Below are positions 1,573 to 50,225 of a stretch of DNA of 64,000 nt, piece by piece. Made by a program: the position numbers and the translations under genes. This DNA is from Amantichitinum ursilacus (GTDB taxonomy: Bacteria; Pseudomonadota; Gammaproteobacteria; Burkholderiales; Chitinibacteraceae): positions 186,001 through 250,000 of the forward strand of contig NZ_LAQT01000002.1 in the NCBI RefSeq assembly GCF_001294205.1, read 5' to 3'. The notes under the pieces are model-generated. The model had not been told where the DNA came from. It saw only the letters and a program-made list of their open reading frames with translations, and searched no databases. The stretch's first letter is position 1, and each line of letters begins with the position of its first letter.

Positions 1573-3879
1573 ATGCTTGAAGTCGAAATCGACGGTAAGA
1601 AGCTGACAGTGCCCGGTGGCAGCACCGTGATGGACGCCGCCAACTCGGTTGGCGCGTACATCCCGCACTTTTGCTATCACAAAAAACTCTCCATCGCCGC
1701 TAACTGCCGGATGTGTCTGGTCCAGGTCGAGAAAGCGCCCAAGCCGTTGCCCGCCTGTGCCACGCCGGTGACGGACGGCATGAAGGTGTGGACTCACTCC
1801 GACTCCGCCGTCAAGGCGCAAGCGGGCGTGATGGAGTTTTTGCTGATCAACCACCCGCTGGATTGCCCGATTTGCGATCAGGGCGGTGAATGTCAGCTGC
1901 AGGATCTGGCCGTCGGTTATGGCAAGTCCGCTTCGCGCTACGAAGAAGAAAAGCGCTCGGTGGTCAACAAGAACCTGGGCCCGCTGATCTCCACCGACAT
2001 GACGCGTTGCATTCATTGCACCCGTTGCGTGCGCTTTACCGAAGAAGTGGCAGGCTACCAGGAACTGGGTATGCCGGGCCGCGGTGAGCATTCCGAGATC
2101 ATGTCGTTTATCGGCAAGACCGTTAATTCGGAAATCTCGGGCAACGTGATCGACTTGTGCCCGGTGGGCGCGCTGACGTCCAAGCCGTTCCGCTTCTCGG
2201 CGCGGACCTGGGAACTGTCGCGTCGCAAATCGGTAAGCCCGCATGATGGTCTGGGTTCCAACCTGACCGTGCAGGTGAAAGACCATCAAGTTAAACGCGT
2301 GCTGCCCTTGGATAACGAGTCGATTAACGAATGCTGGTTGTCCGACCGCGATCGTTTCTCGTACGAAGCGCTCAACAGCCCGGAACGCGTAACCAAGCCG
2401 ATGATCAAGCAAGGCGGCGTATGGCAACAGGTGGAATGGACCGTGGCGCTGGAATACGTCGCCAACGGCCTCAAGTCCATCGTGGCTGACCATGGCGTCG
2501 ACAGCATCGCCGCAGTGGCCACGCCGCAATCCACGCTGGAAGAACTGTTCCTGCTGAAGAAGCTGGCCAACGGTCTGGGCGTACAAAATACTGAATCGCG
2601 TCTGCGTCAGCACGATGCCAGCTTTGCCACCGCCGGCGTGCAGTGGTTGGGCCAGAGCATTGTGGAACTGGCAGAAAGCGATGCCGTGGTGGTAGTGGGT
2701 TCCACGCTGCGCAAAGAACACCCGCTGATCGCGCAACGTCTGCGCCAGGCCGTCAAGCACGGCATGAAGGTTGCTGCGGTTAACCCGCACGGCGACGACA
2801 TGCTGCTGCGTCTGGCCGGTGAAGTGGTTACCCGTCCGGACCAACTGGTGGAAGGCCTGCTGGCCGTACTGAAAGCCACCGTCGAAATCAAGGGCGCAAC
2901 CTGCCCGGCGCATATCGACACCAGCCACACCGAGATTACCGATGTCGCTCGCGGCGTGGCCAATATCCTGGCTGCGGGCGAACGTGCTTCGATCATCCTC
3001 GGCAACCTGGCCGTACAAGATGCGCGCGCCGCCGAAATCCACGCCGTTGCCGCCGCACTGGCTGCGCTGACTGGCGCCACCTTCGGCGTGCTGACCGCGG
3101 GCGCCAACACCGCGGGCGCTGAGTTGATCGGCTTTAACGCCGCAGGCGACGTATTTGCTACGCCGAAGAAAGCCTATGTATTGCTGGGCGCAGAGCCCGA
3201 CTTCGATACCGCCAACCCGGTCAAGGCATTGGCTGCGGTTGAGCAAGCCGAAATGGTGGTGGTGCTGTCGAGCTTCCAGTCGTGCGCATACGACTATGCC
3301 GATGTAATCCTGCCGGTTTCGCCGTTCTCGGAAACCTCGGGCACTTACATCAATATGGAAGGCCGCCCGCAAAGCTTTAACGGCGTGGTGCGTCCGCTGG
3401 GCGATACCCGTCCGGCCTGGAAAGTGTTCCGCGTGCTGGGCAACTTGCTGGGTCTGCATGGCTTTGATTACGGCACTTCGGAAGAAGTCCGTGACGAAGC
3501 GCTGGCCGCTGGCGTCGAAGCCCGTCTCAACAACAACGCTGTAGCTCATGTGCACGTGAAAGCGCGAGCGGCCGGCAACGGTCTGGTGCGTCTGGCTGAA
3601 GTGCCGTTGTACCAGAGCGATGTGTTGTCACGTCGTGCGCCTAGCCTGCATGCCACCGTGGATGCGCAGGTTGCCGAAACGTTGCGCGCCAACGCGGCCA
3701 CCCTGGCTGCACTGGGTGTAGCGGCCGGTGACAAAGTCAAAGTAGAGCAGGGCGGTACGGCTGAACTAGTAGTGGCGCTGGACGCCCGCTTGCTGGATCA
3801 GGTTGTGCGGATTTCTGCTGGCCACCCGCTGACCCGTGATCTTGACAGCGCCGCCGCGCTGCAAGTTGCGAAAGCATAA
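1573..3879 (+). CDS. nuoG: NADH-quinone oxidoreductase subunit G
   Basis: This is the 75-kDa subunit of complex I, 768 residues, the electron wire between NuoF and NuoI. The N-terminal ferredoxin-like domain has [2Fe-2S] ligands (CYHKKL, CRMC, CATPV). It is followed by the His-ligand cluster region ([14 protein letters not shown]) and a [4Fe-4S] site ([10 protein letters not shown] and CPVGA). A molybdopterin-oxidoreductase-like domain fills the rest. The 87-base gap after nuoF contains an 8-bp GC-rich hairpin (1494-1501 with 1512-1519), possibly an intercistronic processing or stability element. No strong ribosome binding site is visible before the ATG. The assignment is secure. Confidence 0.97.
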
Positions 3880-43666: not shown

Positions 43667-45253
43667 TCAGTCCCGCAAATCCGCCCATGCCAGCTCAAAA
43701 CGCGCCAGATACTTGCGCAGGCGATCAGCATCGTTGGGCTGCTTTTTGCCTTCGCGCGATACGGCAAACAGCATGCGGCCCGCCTCGGACAAACTGCTGG
43801 CCCGGCGACACACGCGCACCACAGCTTCCAGCTGCGCACGGTCAAACAGGTCCAGCTGTGCGCTGCGTTCACCGAGCAAATCATCGAGCTCGGAAGCGCC
43901 GGCCGCGCTGCCCCAGCCATGCTGCAGCCGCGCAATTTCCTGCGCCACATTCTGCTCATCAATCCGGCCCGCATCGGCCAATGTGGCCATACGCGTTACC
44001 GATGCGCTCAGCTCGCGGAAATTGCCAGACCAGCGCGCCTGGGCGGAGGTGGCAAAATCCAGATAGCGGCGACGCGCTTCCACGTTAAAGCGCACTTGCT
44101 CGCCGTGCTCCCGCGCAAAGCGCGCCAGTTCGAAATCGAGGTTAGGTTCGATGTCTTCGGAGCGACCGGCCAGACCGGGCAATTCATAAGTCCACAAATT
44201 AATCCGCGCATATAAATCCTCGCGGAATTTGCCTTCGGCCACCCAGCGGCGCAAATCTCGATGCGTGCCCGCAATCAACTGAAAATCGCTTTCAACTTCG
44301 CGATCACCACCAAACGGAAAGAAGCGTTTTTCTTCAATGGCCTTGAGTAACATCGCTTGCTCATCCAGGCCCAATTCGCCGATCTCATCGAGAAACAACA
44401 AGCCGCCATCGGCTGCCCGCAGCAAGCCTGGGCGTTCGGTTTGCGCGCCGGTAAAAGCGCCTTTAACGTGGCCAAATAAAGCCGACATCGCACTATCGCC
44501 GCGCAAGGTGGCGCAATTAACTTCCACAAAACGGCCGCTGATTTGATGGCGCGCTTTTTTTAATTCATACACTTTGCGCGCCAGAAACGATTTGCCCGCG
44601 CCTGTCGGCCCCACCATCAAGATCGGCGCTTTGGAGCGCCCGGCAACATGCTCGATCTGCTCGATCACCCGATTGAAATGCGCATTGCGCGTGGCAATGC
44701 CGGACTTTAAAAACGACACCGTCTCGGCCGCATCGCGCTTGAAACGCTGCGCAATCTTGTTATAGCGCGACAAATCCAGATCGATGATGGTGTAGCTACC
44801 CGCGGCATTGCCGGTTTCGGCTTTGCGCGGCGGCGATGTCTGGATTAACCGGCCCGGCAAATAACGCGCTTCGGCCAGCAGAAACCAGCAAATTTGCGCC
44901 ACGTGCGTGCCGGTGGTGATGTGGATCAGGTAGTCCTCGTTCTCGGTATCAAATGGGTAATCGTGGGCGAAATCATGCAGCGCGCTGTACACCTCCTCAA
45001 AATCCCAGGGATTACGCAGGTTGATTTCTACGCGACGGGTTTCGGTTTCGGGCGAAACGCTATGTAAATCGTTGCAGGTGCGCTCGGCCAGCCCGCGGCT
45101 GCGCTCGTCATGCAGTAATTCCAGCCGGTGCACGATCAGATCTTCTTGCTGACCCAGGCTGATGGTCGGCCGCCATTTCTCCCAGCGCTGACTACCGCGC
45201 CCGACATGGTCGAGCACGGTGCCGATAAAGCCAATGACGACGGTCTTGCGCAT
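43667..45253 (-). CDS. rtcR: Sigma-54-dependent regulator of RNA repair
   Basis: This is a 528-residue bacterial enhancer-binding protein. The N-terminal CARF-like sensor domain (1-180; begins [17 protein letters not shown]) is typical of RtcR and is thought to sense RNA end products. The AAA+ domain has Walker [12 protein letters not shown], the sigma-54 contact loop GAFTGAQ, and Walker [13 protein letters not shown]-terminal DNA-binding region follows. It is divergent from rsr-rtcBA, with a sigma-54 promoter 152-167 bases from its start codon, exactly the arrangement known for rtc operons. Confidence 0.95.
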
Positions 45254-45404: not shown

Positions 45405-45420
45405 TTGGCACGCCGATTGC
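45405..45420 (+). promoter_or_regulatory. Sigma-54 promoter of the rsr-rtcBA operon
   Basis: TTGGCACGCCGATTGC matches the -24/-12 consensus (GG at 45407-45408, GC at 45419-45420, normal spacing). The start of transcription should be near 45432. RtcR, encoded divergently, is the expected activator. The AT-rich stretch 45280-45390 may hold its binding sites and an IHF site. Confidence 0.9.
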
Positions 45421-45461
45421 AAAGTAGCTGGCATCAAAACGAAATCGCTGTGAGTACTGAA

Positions 45462-47024
45462 ATGGCCAACCTGCAATTGTTCAACGCGCTGACTGCCAGC
45501 CTGCCGCAGACCAATACGCTCAACCGGAGCAACGCCGCGGCTTATGCCTATAAGCCAGAACACAAACTGGCGCAGTTGGTGATGACCGGTTGCCTGAACC
45601 AGACCTTCTATGCACAGGCCGAATTGCAACTGGCGGACGTGCTGACGTTGTGTGCTGGACTGGATGCGCGTTTTATCGCACAAGCTGCCATATATGGTCG
45701 TCAGCGTGGCCACATGAAAGACATGCCCGCGCTACTGCTGGCGGTGCTTTCACGCAAAGACGCGGCGCTGTTTGCGCAGGTGTTCGATCAGGTCATCGAT
45801 AACGGCAAGATGTTGCGCAACTTTGTGCAGATCATGCGCAGCGGGGCCACCGGGCGTAAGTCGTTGGGCTCGCGTCCCAAGAAGGCAGTGCAGGCGTGGC
45901 TGAACCGTGCCACCGAAGCGCAATTGTTAAGCGCAAGCATCGGCAGCGCGCCCTCGCTGGCGGACGTCATCAAGATGGTCCACCCCAAGCCGCAAGAAGC
46001 CTGGCGCGAGGCGTTTTTTGCCTGGGTATTGGGCCAATCTTGTAATCGCGCGGCGCTGCCACCGCTGACCCAGCAATTGCTGGCCTTTCGCGCCGATACC
46101 GCGCTGGAGATGCCGAACGTGCCGTTCCAGTTATTGACCAGCTCGGCCCTGAATAGCGCGCAATGGGGGCGACTGGCCGAACGTATGGGCTGGCAAGCGT
46201 TGCGCATGAATCTGAACACGCTGGCACGGCAGGGCGTCTTTGTGCAGCCCGGCATGATCGACATGGTTGCGGCGCGCCTGGCGGACCCGGAACTCGTCGC
46301 GGCGGCGCGGGTTTATCCCTATCAGTTGCTGGCCGCATGGCGTATGACCGGGGGTGAGATTCCGGCGCAAATCAAAAACGCTTTGCAGGATGCGCTGGAA
46401 ATCGCGTTGCGCAATGTGCCCGCGCTGCAAGGCCATGTGGTGGTGTGTCCGGATGTTTCGGGATCGATGTCGAGCCCGGTCACCGGTTGGCGGCCCGGCG
46501 CGACCACGGCGGTACGTTGCATTGATGTCGCCGCCTTGATGGCAGCGGCGGTGCTGCGCCAGTGCCCGCAAGCACGTGTTTTGCCATTTGAAACCAAGGT
46601 GGTGCAAGTGCGGCTGAATGCCCGCGATAGCGTGCTGACCAATGCCGAAAAACTGGCCGCAATCGGCGGCGGCGGAACGCGTTGTTCGGCTCCGCTGGCG
46701 CAGTTGGTTAAAGAAAAGGCCGTGGTCGATACCGTCATCCTGGTGTCGGATAACGAATCGTGGATTGATGCGCGCCGTCATGGCGCCACCGAGACCCTGC
46801 AACAGTGGCAGCAGATTAAACACCGCAATCCGCAAGCGCGCTTGATCTGCATCGATATGCAACCGTACGGGACGACGCAAGCGCAAGAAAGCCCGGACAT
46901 CCTGAATGTGGGAGGCTTTGGCGACGCGGTGTTTGATGTGGTGGCGCAGTTTGCGGCGGGCAGTTTTGGTGCCGGGCACTGGGTCAACGCGATCAAGCGG
47001 ACCCGCCTGGCCGGGGACGCCTGA
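45462..47024 (+). CDS. rsr: Ro60/TROVE domain RNA-binding protein
   Basis: This is a bacterial orthologue of the Ro autoantigen, a ring of HEAT-like repeats plus a von Willebrand A domain, which binds Y RNAs and damaged RNAs. The VWA domain (about 335-520) has the metal site DVSGS (in VCPDVSGSMSS) and a later TLILVSDN-like strand. I chose ATG 45462 (MANLQLFNAL). GTG 45450 is possible. The upstream frame from 45405 overlaps the sigma-54 promoter and cannot be translated from it. The length is about 520 residues. It is followed by the three Y-like RNAs and rtcBA. Confidence 0.93.
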   Translation: MANLQLFNALTASLPQTNTLNRSNAAAYAYKPEHKLAQLVMTGCLNQTFYAQAELQLADVLTLCAGLDARFIAQAAIYGRQRGHMKDMPALLLAVLSRKDAALFAQVFDQVIDNGKMLRNFVQIMRSGATGRKSLGSRPKKAVQAWLNRATEAQLLSASIGSAPSLADVIKMVHPKPQEAWREAFFAWVLGQSCNRAALPPLTQQLLAFRADTALEMPNVPFQLLTSSALNSAQWGRLAERMGWQALRMNLNTLARQGVFVQPGMIDMVAARLADPELVAAARVYPYQLLAAWRMTGGEIPAQIKNALQDALEIALRNVPALQGHVVVCPDVSGSMSSPVTGWRPGATTAVRCIDVAALMAAAVLRQCPQARVLPFETKVVQVRLNARDSVLTNAEKLAAIGGGGTRCSAPLAQLVKEKAVVDTVILVSDNESWIDARRHGATETLQQWQQIKHRNPQARLICIDMQPYGTTQAQESPDILNVGGFGDAVFDVVAQFAAGSFGAGHWVNAIKRTRLAGDA

Positions 47025-47037
47025 AGTTGAGTAATCC

Positions 47038-47133
47038 GGCACGAATGTAAGACGGGTCTACATCTCCGAACCTTGCTGGAAGGTAATCCAGCCCGCACTG
47101 CGGTGCGCGCTGACTCGCTTGTTTTGTCGTGCC
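47038..47133 (+). ncRNA. Y RNA-like ncRNA 1 (YrlB-like)
   Basis: The ends pair over 7 bp (GGCACGA 47038-47044 with TCGTGCC 47127-47133). After an internal loop (ATGTA side, GTTTTG side) an inner helix pairs 47053-47058 with 47112-47117, including the G-U pair found in all three RNAs, extended by a bulged A. TACATC follows on the 5' side. The core holds a 5-bp hairpin with a D-loop-like GG loop (47075-47092) and CGCAC/GTGCG with a TGCG tetraloop. No T-loop is visible, so tRNA mimicry is reduced. Confidence 0.75.
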
Positions 47134-47172
47134 ACTGTTTTATCCGCGCTGCTTGCGGCGTGGCCAGGTTTT

Positions 47173-47300
47173 TCGGCGAATGCGAACGGAACTACATCCT
47201 CTAACGATCGAGATACGGGTTCAAATCCCGTCGGCTCCAGCACTGTGGGGCCGTAGTTCAACGGTAGAACACGCCAACGTTTCGTTCATTTTGTCGCCGA
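47173..47300 (+). ncRNA. Y RNA-like ncRNA 2 (YrlA-like permuted tRNA)
   Basis: The outer helix is CGGCGA (47174-47179) with TCGCCG (47294-47299). The internal loop is ATGCG against CATTTTG. The inner helix is AACGGAAC (47185-47192) with GTTTCGTT (47279-47286). The tRNA-like module then reads in order: T-arm ACGGG-TTCAAAT-CCCGT (47215-47231), acceptor CGGCTCC/GGGGCCG closed by an eight-base loop (47232-47253), TA like U8-A9, and D-arm GTTC-AACGGTA-GAAC (47256-47270). This is the circular permutation described for bacterial YrlA, with the Ro-binding stem in place of the anticodon arm. Confidence 0.88.
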
Positions 47301-47317
47301 TCCTTTTGACCGGGTTT

Positions 47318-47460
47318 TGCGGTGAATGCGGTTGGAACTACATCGGGTAGAGCGCTCGCGGCAACGCGGGAGGCGCAGGTTCAAGTCCTGCTGAGTGCAT
47401 CGACTGATAGATGCGCAAGATAGCTCAGTGCTTTTCTGTTTCAACGTCTTTGTCATCGCA
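47318..47460 (+). ncRNA. Y RNA-like ncRNA 3 (tRNA opened in the D-loop)
   Basis: The outer helix is GCGGTGA (47319-47325) with TCATCGC (47453-47459). The inner helix is GTTGGAAC (47331-47338) with GTTTCAAC (47438-47445). Compared with ncRNA 2, several pairs change on both sides. The core reads: GGGTA-GAGC (3' half of a D-arm, 47345-47353), a 6-bp hairpin with a GCAA loop in the anticodon-arm position (47355-47370), T-arm GCAGG-TTCAAGT-CCTGC (47375-47391), an acceptor-like stem GTGCATC/GATGCGC with an eight-base loop (47395-47416), and TA-GCTC-AG (47421-47428), whose GCTC can pair with GAGC. Confidence 0.8.
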
Positions 47461-47494
47461 CCGTTTTTTAACCATCCATAAACATCATTTAAAT

Positions 47495-47524
47495 GGCCCC
47501 GTCGTTAAACTGGACGGCGGGGCC
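47495..47524 (+). other. Hairpin before rtcB
   Basis: GGCCCC-GTC (47495-47503) pairs with GAC and GGGGCC (47513-47515, 47519-47524) with a three-base bulge. It lies between the last Y-like RNA and rtcB and may separate or process the RNA part from the coding part of the transcript. No T run follows. Confidence 0.5.
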
Positions 47525-47562
47525 GGGGGCCAGCAAAGGCCACATTAAAACGAGAGATAACA

Positions 47563-48783
47563 ATGAGCACCAACGATTATCAAGTGCTGCAAGTCAGCGG
47601 CGGTAAGCCCATCAAACTGTGGACCAACGGCGTGCCGGTGGAAGACGCCGCGCAAAAGCAGCTGTTCCAGACCTCAAAAATGCCGTTTATTTTTGATCAC
47701 ATTGCAGTGATGCCGGATGTCCATCTGGGTAAGGGTTCGACCATCGGTAGCGTTATTCCCACCCAGGGCGCGATCATCCCGGCGGCGGTGGGCGTGGATA
47801 TCGGCTGCGGAATGATGGCGGCGTGCACCACGCTGACGGCCAAAGACCTGCCCGATAACCTGGCGGGGTTGCGTAGCGCCATCGAAAAAGCGGTGCCGCA
47901 CGGACGTACGCCGGGCGCGCGCGATAAAGGCGCGTGGTCCACGCCGCCCGAAACCGTCGATAGCATGTGGGCCGATTTGTTGCCCGGTTTCAAGCGTATT
48001 ACCGATAAATATCCGCGCCTTAAAAACACCAACAACTACAAGCATCTAGGCACCTTGGGTACGGGTAACCACTTTATTGAGGTATGCCTGGATGAGGCGG
48101 ACCGCGTGTGGTTCATGTTGCATAGCGGGTCGCGCGGGGTAGGTAACGCCATCGGCAACTTGTTTATCGAACTGGCGCAGGCCGATATGCGTCAGCACAT
48201 CGCCAATCTGCCGGATAAGGACCTGGCGTATTTCGAAGAAGGCAGCGAGCACTTTGATGATTACGTCGAGGCCGTCGGTTGGGCGCAGGACTACGCACGC
48301 CGTAACCGCGCCGTGATGATGCAGAACGTGATCGACGCGGCGCGCACCGTGATTACCAAGCCGTTTGACGCCAGCATGGAAGCGGTAAATTGCCACCACA
48401 ACTATGTGCAGAAAGAAAAGCACTTCGGCGCCGAAATTCTGGTCACGCGTAAAGGCGCGGTGTCGGCGCAAAAAGGGCAGTTGGGCATCATTCCGGGTTC
48501 GATGGGCGCCAAAAGTTTTATCGTGCGCGGGCTGGGTAACGAAGAGGCGTTCTGCTCGTGCAGCCATGGCGCAGGTCGCACCATGAGCCGTAACGAAGCC
48601 AGACGTCGCTTTACCGTGGACGACCAGATCAAAGCCACGCAACACGTTGAATGCCGCAAGGATAGCGATGTGATCGATGAAATTCCGATGGCGTACAAGG
48701 ATATCGACGCGGTGATGCAAGCCCAGAACAGTCTGGTGGAAGTCGTGCACACATTGCGGCAAGTGGTGTGCGTCAAAGGATAA
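47563..48783 (+). CDS. rtcB: RNA ligase RtcB
   Basis: This is a 406-residue Mn/GTP-dependent ligase that seals RNA 2',3'-cyclic phosphate or 3'-phosphate ends to 5'-OH ends. Active-site motifs are complete: MPDVHLGKGSTIGSVIP, GVDIGCGM (metal Cys), GTLGTGNHF, HSGSRGVGN, NCHHNYV (His), GSMGAKSFIVRG, and the guanylylated His in CSHGAGR. The length is close to the E. coli enzyme. It is the second protein gene of the RtcR-controlled operon and could repair cleaved tRNAs after stress. Confidence 0.97.
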   Translation: MSTNDYQVLQVSGGKPIKLWTNGVPVEDAAQKQLFQTSKMPFIFDHIAVMPDVHLGKGSTIGSVIPTQGAIIPAAVGVDIGCGMMAACTTLTAKDLPDNLAGLRSAIEKAVPHGRTPGARDKGAWSTPPETVDSMWADLLPGFKRITDKYPRLKNTNNYKHLGTLGTGNHFIEVCLDEADRVWFMLHSGSRGVGNAIGNLFIELAQADMRQHIANLPDKDLAYFEEGSEHFDDYVEAVGWAQDYARRNRAVMMQNVIDAARTVITKPFDASMEAVNCHHNYVQKEKHFGAEILVTRKGAVSAQKGQLGIIPGSMGAKSFIVRGLGNEEAFCSCSHGAGRTMSRNEARRRFTVDDQIKATQHVECRKDSDVIDEIPMAYKDIDAVMQAQNSLVEVVHTLRQVVCVKG

Positions 48784-48905: not shown

Positions 48906-49934
48906 ATGACAACAACAAAAACTGAATATCTGGAGCTGGATGGCTCCGTGGGCGAAGGCGGTGGGCAGATTCTGCGTACCGCGCTCACTTTATCGATGCT
49001 GACCGGCACGCCGATCCGCATCAGCAAAATCCGGGCAGGACGGCAGAAGCCGGGCTTGTTGCGCCAGCATCTCACCGCAGTGCAGGCGGCCGCGGCGATT
49101 TGTGGGGCGACGGTGGAAGGGGCCACGCCCGGATCGCAAGCGCTGACGTTTGCGCCTGGCCCGATACGCGGCGGCGATTATCGCTTTGCCATCGGTAGCG
49201 CGGGCAGTTGCACGCTGGTGCTGCAGACGGTGCTGCCGGCCTTGTGGTTTGCCGATGCGCCTGCACGCATTTGCGTGAGCGGCGGCACGCATAACCCTAA
49301 AGCGCCGCCCGCAGATTTTCTGATTGATGCATGGCTGCCGCTACTGCAGCGCATGGGCGTGCAGACGCAGATCGAGTTGGTGCGGCATGGGTTTTATCCG
49401 GCCGGTGGCGGCGAGGTGGTGGCGCACACGCAGCCGGTGCCTGCTTTGCAGCCGCTCGACTTGTCGACGCGTGGCGCGCACGTCGCCCTCAATGCCGTGG
49501 CCATGGTGGCGGGCGTGCCGGTGAGCGTTGCGCTGCGCGAGGTGGAATGCCTACGTGCGCGCTTGCCCGAGGTGACGGCTGCACACCGCGAGTTGTCAGA
49601 TCGGATGGGGCCAGGCAATGCGGTGCTGGTGCGCGTACAGCACGAAAATGTCACCGAGCTATTTACCGGCTTCGGCGAAAAAGGCATCGCCGCTGAACGC
49701 GTGGCCGACCGCGTGGCGCAAGAAGCTTTGGGCTATCTGCGCCAGGACGCCGCAGTGGGCGAATATCTGGCCGACCAGTTGTTATTGCCGCTGGCGCTGG
49801 CGCGCGGCGGCACGGTGACGACCACGCATGCATCCAGCCATCTGACCACTAACGCGCAAGTGATCGAGAAATTTCTGGATGTCAGCATCCAGATTGAGCC
49901 CGAGCGGGGCGGCTATCGCATCACCGTCGCTTGA
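48906..49934 (+). CDS. rtcA: RNA 3'-terminal phosphate cyclase
   Basis: This is a 342-residue enzyme that converts RNA 3'-phosphate ends to 2',3'-cyclic phosphates with ATP. It begins with the typical LDGSVGEGGGQILRTALTLS. Other landmarks are GFYPAGGGEV and the C-terminal catalytic His region TTHASSHLTTN. In published rtc systems its product influences RtcR through the CARF domain. It lies 122 bases after rtcB in the same direction. Confidence 0.96.
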   Translation: MTTTKTEYLELDGSVGEGGGQILRTALTLSMLTGTPIRISKIRAGRQKPGLLRQHLTAVQAAAAICGATVEGATPGSQALTFAPGPIRGGDYRFAIGSAGSCTLVLQTVLPALWFADAPARICVSGGTHNPKAPPADFLIDAWLPLLQRMGVQTQIELVRHGFYPAGGGEVVAHTQPVPALQPLDLSTRGAHVALNAVAMVAGVPVSVALREVECLRARLPEVTAAHRELSDRMGPGNAVLVRVQHENVTELFTGFGEKGIAAERVADRVAQEALGYLRQDAAVGEYLADQLLLPLALARGGTVTTTHASSHLTTNAQVIEKFLDVSIQIEPERGGYRITVA

Positions 49935-49937
49935 TGG

Positions 49938-50225
49938 CTACACCGCATAACGCTGCTTGCGCTCCGCCGTATACGCCCACCAAGCCTGCGGTTCCGCGCC
50001 ATCCATAAAGCGGGTCACCGAGATAAACGTATCGATCATGCATGGGTCATGGCGCGTGGCCGTGGCCGCGCACAGTTCGTCGTACAACGCGTACGGATCG
50101 CGGCCGCGCAGTTGCTCAGGCTTGTCGATGCCCAGCAAACGCAAATCTGCGGCGACCGCCGGGCCGACGTTGGGCAGATCAGTCAGTGTTTGCAGACGGC
50201 TGCGATTTACTTTGCTGGGGTGCAT
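49938..50225 (-). CDS. Cdd1-like helix-hairpin-helix protein
   Basis: This is a 95-residue protein with an HhH segment (LPNVGPAVAADLRLLGIDKP) and the family tail IDTFISVTRFMDGAEPQAWW. It matches the Cdd1 (pathogenicity locus) family, found in many bacteria and often annotated as a mitomycin-resistance-like protein. Nucleic acid binding is likely from the HhH. The gene is convergent with rtcA, with only three bases between stops. Confidence 0.82.
   Translation of the reverse strand: MHPSKVNRSRLQTLTDLPNVGPAVAADLRLLGIDKPEQLRGRDPYALYDELCAATATRHDPCMIDTFISVTRFMDGAEPQAWWAYTAERKQRYAV

Follow-up and report, generated by a model that had tools for sequence, protein, structure and literature searches.

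The rsr-rtcBA locus and its three Y RNAs

We analysed a window, i.e. the whole stretch of 64,000 nucleotides of Amantichitinum ursilacus DNA, containing an rsr-Y-rtcBA RNA repair operon composed of rtcR, a sigma-54 promoter match (assigned by pattern only), rsr, Y RNAs, rtcB and rtcA (Table 1). The gene rtcR is divergent from rsr and its product matches the PADLOC model RtcR--CARF_AAA_HTH with 890 bits. We placed the start of rsr at the ATG at 45462 since the residues MAN are common to the aligned homologues there. Across the window only TGGCACGCCGATTGCA agrees with the sigma-54 promoter pattern TGGCACRNNNNTTGCW at every position; at up to two mismatches the pattern yields 25 matches compared to 31.3 by chance, i.e. 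no excess. Directly 3' of rtcA a small gene of the Cdd1 family is present on the minus strand (49941-50225). The preliminary description had placed Y RNA-like RNAs with covarying stems in an rtcR/rsr-Y-rtcB-rtcA operon, between rsr and an rtcB 538 bases further on, and both the size of this gap and the operon assignment hold up against the Pfam, PADLOC and Rfam matches and the homologous loci.

Table 1 Features of the rtcR/rsr-Y-rtcBA locus in window coordinates
Feature	Position	Strand	Evidence and remarks
rtcR, sigma-54 activator with CARF domain	43667-45253	-	Pfam RtcR E 3e-86 and Sigma54_activat
Sigma-54 promoter match TGGCACGCCGATTGCA	45406-45421	+	5' of rsr; pattern match
rsr (Ro60/TROVE protein)	45462-47024	+	Pfam vWA_Ro60 E 4e-22, TROVE E 7e-8
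Y RNA copy 1, YrlB-like, Y stem, no T arm	47038-47133 (96 nt)	+	YrlB 23.7 bits; MFE z -2.8
Y RNA copy 2, YrlA-like	47173-47300 (128 nt)	+	YrlA 52.5 bits; MFE z -3.9
Copy 2 predicted anticodon hairpin ATC-CTCTAAC-GAT, tRNA positions 29-41	47196-47208	+	Loop 47199-47205, triplet CTA
Copy 2 positions 42-43 (CG)	47209-47210	+	Pairs with 27-28 at 47272-47273
Copy 2 T arm ACGGG-TTCAAAT-CCCGT	47215-47231	+	
Copy 2 closed acceptor helix CGGCTCC / GGGGCCG	47232-47253	+	Looped, no CCA end
Copy 2 D arm GTTC-AACGGTA-GAAC	47256-47270	+	
Y RNA copy 3	47318-47460 (143 nt)	+	YrlA 19.6 bits; R1 42.3 bits; MFE z -2.7
Copy 3 D-stem 3' half GAGC	47350-47353	+	Pairs with GCTC 47423-47426; consensus, not single-sequence MFE
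Copy 3 hairpin in anticodon position	47355-47370	+	Loop GGCAAC, unlike a canonical anticodon loop
Copy 3 T arm	47375-47391	+	
Copy 3 closed acceptor helix GTGCATC / GATGCGC	47395-47416	+	MFE; consensus version shifted and weaker
rtcB RNA ligase	47563-48783	+	Pfam RtcB E 2e-128
rtcA RNA 3'-phosphate cyclase	48906-49934	+	Pfam RTC E 4e-83

Judged from its sequence, the segment between rsr and rtcB holds genes for three bacterial Y RNAs that would serve the neighbouring Rsr, each lying beside a Ro60/Rsr gene and having a long stem that pairs the RNA ends and carries a conserved internal loop. That three Y-like RNAs lie here, downstream of an exact sigma-54 match, was confirmed, and the helices described for them are found in the sequence: the outer pairs GGCACGA/TCGTGCC, CGGCGA/TCGCCG and GCGGTGA/TCATCGC, and the inner pairs AACGGAAC/GTTTCGTT of copy 2 and GTTGGAAC/GTTTCAAC of copy 3, between which three pairs change on both sides (A-T to G-C, A-T to T-A and C-G to T-A) and the G-U pair is kept. 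In all three copies the 5' side carries GAATG and TACATC, and the 3' side carries TTTG; compensatory changes preserve the pairing at homologous loci as well. The earlier statement that the copies follow one RNA design applies to the Y stem, but not to the inserts, which are of three different kinds. The minimum free energy (MFE) of copies 1, 2 and 3 is equalled by 3, 0 and 3 of 200 shuffles, respectively, and the z-scores are -1.0, -1.8 and -1.2 if the ends are shifted by 3 nt.

The Rfam covariance search that had been proposed as a check returned, in E-value mode, matches to all copies (copy 1 YrlB, E 0.04; copy 2 YrlA, 8e-11; copy 3 YrlA, 0.27), but all of them score below gathering (97 for YrlB, RF02565; 69 for YrlA, RF02553); at the gathering scores the window yields only two tRNAs, both outside the segment. 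Copy 1 resembles YrlB in its stem and loop layout and in its place before a YrlA-like copy, and differs from it in score. Copy 2 has the YrlA order of T arm, closed acceptor and D arm, which is altered in copy 3 by a split D arm; as it stays below the cut-off, we file copy 2 as a variant beside RF02553 and not as a member. In the interval between copies 1 and 2 a terminator-like stem followed by TTTTT is found at 47144-47163 (two overlapping matches compared to 0.7 expected), and between copy 3 and rtcB we noted by eye a GC-rich inverted repeat at 47495-47524 (GGCCCCGTC ... GACGGCGGGGCC) with no T run behind it.

tRNA modules in copies 2 and 3

The preliminary description had missed that two of the inserts are tRNA modules. 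Copy 2 is predicted, from its sequence, to be a whole tRNA in circularly permuted order, which the Y stem enters between positions 28 and 29. Its 5' part runs from the Y stem through TAC, positions 29-31 (ATC), the loop CTCTAAC, positions 39-41 (GAT) and 42-43 (CG) to the variable loop AGAT, followed by the T arm, the acceptor 3' strand, a loop, the acceptor 5' strand, TA and the D arm, and ending with position 26 (A), positions 27-28 (CG), CCAAC and the Y stem. In this arrangement the branch point for the Y stem lies on the anticodon stem's 5' strand, and the anticodon arm consists of a 5-bp stem and the 7-nt loop CUCUAAC. Aligned to the tRNAs of the host, copy 2 reaches 55 in the best circular alignment compared to 35.5 in the linear one and a shuffle maximum of 40. 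No tRNA is called by ARAGORN within the segment, and the acceptor of copy 2 is closed by a loop. By nearest-neighbour energy the proposed fold scores -39.8 kcal/mol, or -43.7 if its anticodon stem is left unpaired; the MFE fold, at -48.3, lacks the anticodon hairpin and pairs CTC with GAG instead. These single-sequence energies favour other folds and give no support for the hairpin, in a model that has no tertiary contacts and cannot decide the question. The anatomy, i.e. the Y stems, the tRNA modules and the predicted hairpin, is well supported by the comparison with relatives described below, and we hold it with high confidence.

Copy 3 is predicted to be a tRNA whose ends lie in the D loop and which has no normal anticodon loop. 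We derived a consensus from seven copies, six of them flagged as D-loop-opened by the classifier and one (L064:7103-7220) added by eye, showing a D stem GAGC/GCTC that closes across the insert, a hairpin, a T arm and a closed acceptor. The D stem is invariant in the seven copies and therefore without covariation; the hairpin at the anticodon position covaries, with loops that are short or self-paired and not canonical. The proposed fold of copy 3 has -49.8 compared to -56.7 kcal/mol for the MFE fold, and its circular alignment to host tRNAs of 46 (shuffle maximum 42, linear-only 41.5) is suggestive only. A tRNA origin of copy 1 was rejected, its circular alignment to host tRNAs of 27.5 being below the shuffle mean of 28.5 with the ends shifted by 3 nt.

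Y RNA arrays and the anticodon hairpin among relatives

We compared the window with 80 named rsr loci (the best 80 of 97, a set leaning towards Pseudomonas) and further rsr loci, and dropped 12 of 107 as duplicates or fragments (L002-L010, L015, L018, L102), leaving 95. A Y-stem descriptor, its threshold picked from five and its scan confined to the region downstream of rsr, finds 198 copies in these 95 loci, compared to three when the opposite strand is read and 0-3 per dinucleotide shuffle (five shuffles); four loci with Y RNAs upstream of rsr (L011-L014) are hence scored as zero. For the 84 loci with rtcB downstream, window included and rtcB being in some a distant match of 25-33% identity, the number of loci with 0, 1, 2, 3, 4, 8 and 11 copies is 7, 19, 28, 19, 9, 1 and 1. 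Two is thus the commonest copy number, as the preliminary description had stated, while its suggestion that three in a row may be new fails: 30 of the 84 loci carry three or more, so three copies are ordinary, and we discarded copy number as a novelty. The eight-copy locus is that of Andreprevotia lacus (L098). The largest array of the sample, eleven Y RNAs on the minus strand at 6168-7936 of L103 (genome G073), includes all five insert classes.

A T arm is found in 147 of the 198 copies and T and D arms together in 118. By insert, 31 copies have T arm, acceptor and D arm with an anticodon hairpin (one of them, L098.1, being probably a chance fit), 85 have the same without the hairpin, six are D-loop-opened, 25 have a T arm without a D arm and 51 have no T arm. 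The hairpin is accordingly absent from most array members (167/198), and the window itself holds one copy without T arm, one with the hairpin and one D-loop-opened. By eye, the inserts of two copies (L105:6360-6499, minus strand, and L098:7063-7203) resemble tRNAs of the Leu type, and that of L105 has a long variable arm. An Rfam tRNA match of 30.4 (gathering 29) at L020:6846-6984 spans two adjacent Y RNAs and is likely a false tRNA annotation. An array of three Y RNAs at 3409-3834, minus strand, of L224 (genome G313, contig C144) includes one with the anticodon hairpin ACC CTTCCAC GGT; in 8.5 kb there is no match to rsr, rtcB, rtcA or rtcR, while a two-component system and a MobB protein are encoded nearby.

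Among the 93 distinct copies with T and D arms, 23 fit a frame of a 3-bp hairpin, a 7-nt loop and a 2-bp closure, compared to 1.3 in shuffles (maximum 6) and 6.5 with re-dealt 3' tails (maximum 12). Scanning the loop length gave these 23 copies at 7 nt and 0-6 copies at each length of 3-6 and 8-12 nt. U33 and A37, neither of which was a selection criterion, are each present in 21 of the 23. We aligned hairpin copies (alignment A1, in which L098:7063, Leu-like by eye and probably a chance fit, was exchanged for L098:7778) and split the alignment into A2 (11 rows) and A3 (10 rows), because the 5' strand of the hairpin fell into two registers; L095 and L101 are omitted from these 21 rows. RNAalifold predicts the hairpin unprompted in both. 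Every row pairs throughout the helix 29-31/39-41 (100%); both sides change at one of three pairs in A2 and two of three in A3, and both 27-28/42-43 pairs covary in A3; in A2 they are invariant and therefore show no covariation. Across 39 copies from cells and viral contigs, selected for pairing, we counted 16 different 29-31/39-41 helices and 22 triplets.

With a covariance model built from A2, R1, we scanned 399 genomes of the order, taken as the same sample that was searched with Rsr. All matches of at least 50 bits fall within 14 of the 16 rsr-bearing genomes; the 50-bit line was drawn after viewing the list, as R1 at E 0.001 matches 297 of the 399. In one of the two other rsr genomes (G123) the descriptor found no Y stem in the 6.7 kb around rsr, and in the other (G303) the copy is D-loop-opened. 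Six matches just below 50 bits were checked: five hold adjacent tRNA genes and the sixth (L218) has none by ARAGORN. Tandem tRNA genes (L219-L223) reach 47 bits because T arm, acceptor, acceptor and D arm follow one another in the permuted order, and such pairs could be a source of the permuted module. Copy 2 scores 133.9 bits, but is a training row of R1; the model also recovers copies outside its training set that are below the Rfam YrlA cut-off (L104:1927-2068, L100:998-1123, L081:6660-6803).

R1 gave 120 matches in all, 48 of them at 45 bits or more. We parsed 36, leaving out L100, L201, L013, two L101 matches and one L012 match. Two of the 36 lack a T arm by our pattern. In the remaining 34, a loop of 7 nt is found in 17 copies (13 viral), other lengths in 1-4, compared to 1.0 (maximum 4) in shuffles and 5.9 (maximum 11) with re-dealt tails, in a set that leans towards the hairpin since R1 itself contains it. 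As R1 knows the loop, U33 and A37 are biased among the parsed matches, while the count from the 23 copies is unbiased. A full-frame copy is present in at least 13 of the 65 viral contigs that have rsr, with loops such as CTTGTAA (L186) and CTTTTAA (L199). A partial check of viral origin gave PHROG matches to a thymidylate kinase and a phosphoesterase for the IMG/VR contig L168, and for L186 and L165 one match to a family of unknown function among six proteins scanned.

For the anticodon letters we pooled 38 loops, 21 from the 23-copy set and 17 from parsed R1 matches, omitting L098.1 and a repeated loop of L021. Fourteen of them are identical to the anticodon loop of an actual tRNA encoded in the window's own genome, compared to 4.8 for random triplets in the same frame (maximum 12 in 2000 trials); re-dealing the triplets gives a weaker contrast, with a mean of 9.05 and 11 of 2000 trials reaching 14. 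On the other side, A34, which is rare in real bacterial tRNAs, is frequent in this set (11 of the 38 loops). Within one genus, 10 of 46 genomes matched at E 1e-18 or better, giving eight distinct orthologous RNAs, in which the triplet differs in 63% (0.631) of the pairwise comparisons, compared to 7% (0.066) for the rest of the RNA, 8.5% for the D loop and 7.8% for the acceptor loop. Another stretch of 3 nt, located in the internal loop of the Y stem, comes close to the triplet in variability (0.548), so drift of unpaired loops could explain the variability of the triplet. Only four of the ten genomes keep the strict frame; in four others the loop has 8 nt, and in the remaining two 29-41 is mismatched.

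Relation to known Y RNAs and possible function

Shared with the YrlA family RF02553 are the Y stem, CUAC, the T arm, the closed acceptor, the D arm and the rsr/rtcB neighbourhood. The YrlA model has no anticodon hairpin, whereas copy 2 carries one, appearing in the Rfam YrlA alignment as a 12-nt insertion. Among 17 hairpin-class copies from 14 loci, four pass the YrlA gathering score of 69 (L045:6855-6989, 71.3; L106:2047-2177, 79.0; L086:7025-7154, 82.5; L091:7184-7314, 83.3). That YrlA matches a circularly permuted tRNA, as copy 2 does, is already known from the structure PDB 6CU1, according to a passage of PMC11472068. The account of YrlA in the relevant passages of PMC8394870 names D, T and acceptor arms and mentions no anticodon arm there, unlike what we predict for copy 2. 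Among the titles listed by a literature search and in the passages cited here, there was no report of an anticodon arm on a Y RNA. The new element would be an anticodon-arm variant of a known bacterial Y RNA, with provisional priority. Phage tRNAs described as evading tRNA-targeting defences (PMC10264068 and PMC11555353) likewise place anticodon loops on viral RNAs in a conflict with the host; those are tRNAs, whereas here the predicted loop sits on a Y RNA beside Rsr.

We favour a model according to which the RNAs are Rsr-bound, uncharged tRNA mimics serving as decoys for anticodon nucleases, to which as a whole we assign a probability of about 50%; the decoy function taken by itself we rate somewhat short of an even chance. 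The three RNAs probably share their transcription with rsr and rtcBA, driven by the RtcR/sigma-54 promoter, and each Y stem is predicted to be the handle bound by Rsr. Having no free CCA end, copy 2 should escape aminoacylation. According to PMC7790460, tRNAs cleaved in their anticodon loop induce the same operon in Salmonella, and PMC9879122 describes the signal as an oligoribonucleotide with a 2',3'-cyclic phosphate. An operon answering such cleavage would make Rsr-held decoys that display an anticodon loop and would occupy anticodon nucleases or be cut instead of tRNAs, acting beside repair by RtcB/RtcA. A recurring form with anticodon letters that differ between relatives suggests bait for tRNA-cutting enzymes, and competitive inhibition of the nuclease by YrlA has been suggested in the Salmonella work (a passage of PMC7790460). 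Against the model stand the lack of the hairpin in most array members and the finding of the same work that the nuclease left Salmonella YrlA uncut.

The main rival to the decoy model, in our view, is a scaffold or gate, in which the tRNA fold would only dock tRNA-binding proteins such as tRNA-modifying enzymes or PNPase on Rsr and the loop would be kept for shape. YrlA is reported as a substrate of DusA and TruB, its tRNA-like domain as PNPase-binding (passages of PMC8394870), and in D. radiodurans a Y RNA is stated to tether Rsr to PNPase (a passage of PMC7790460); the 85 of 198 copies with T, acceptor and D arms and without the 7-nt hairpin argue that the core module often suffices. A mere scaffold leaves unexplained, however, the recurrence of U33, A37, the loop length of 7 and natural loops, in a part that is absent from the Rfam YrlA model, and we regard it as a possible, rather unlikely explanation; for a Y RNA having an anticodon loop and no acceptor end, we see the decoy as fitting best.

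Alternatively, the same nucleases may cut the loop, and the cleaved Y RNA, kept together by its stem, would then feed RtcR signalling or ligation by RtcB/RtcA. The presence of RtcB/RtcA in the operon and the binding of 5' tRNA fragments with a cyclic phosphate by RtcR (in part of PMC7790460) would suit such a sensor or repair substrate, yet the permutation puts the cut about 30 nt from the 5' end of the Y RNA, unlike a tRNA 5' half, and the Salmonella passages of PMC7790460 describe YrlA as not cut by the nuclease, with fragments not detected, although the YrlA model has no such loop; we consider this role improbable. Degenerate tRNA genes or chance folds could account for the tRNA-like pieces and the weak Rfam tRNA/tmRNA matches in the segment, but are rejected by the ARAGORN result, the permuted alignment of copy 2 (55 compared to 35.5) and stems that covary across taxa, to which the close association with rsr adds, so that hardly any likelihood remains for them.

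Extending the decoy model, RNA repair operons and some viral contigs might carry Y RNAs displaying complete, uncharged and circularly permuted tRNAs as Rsr-held decoys against anticodon nucleases, with anticodon letters that change fast and arrays that offer several tRNA shapes simultaneously, a generalisation we put forward tentatively and with the odds against it. The predicted anticodon loop on a Y RNA opens the decoy idea to a direct test, since it can be mutated while the stem presumed to bind Rsr is left intact. If true, the conflict over tRNA anticodon loops would be extended to RNAs that are not part of translation.
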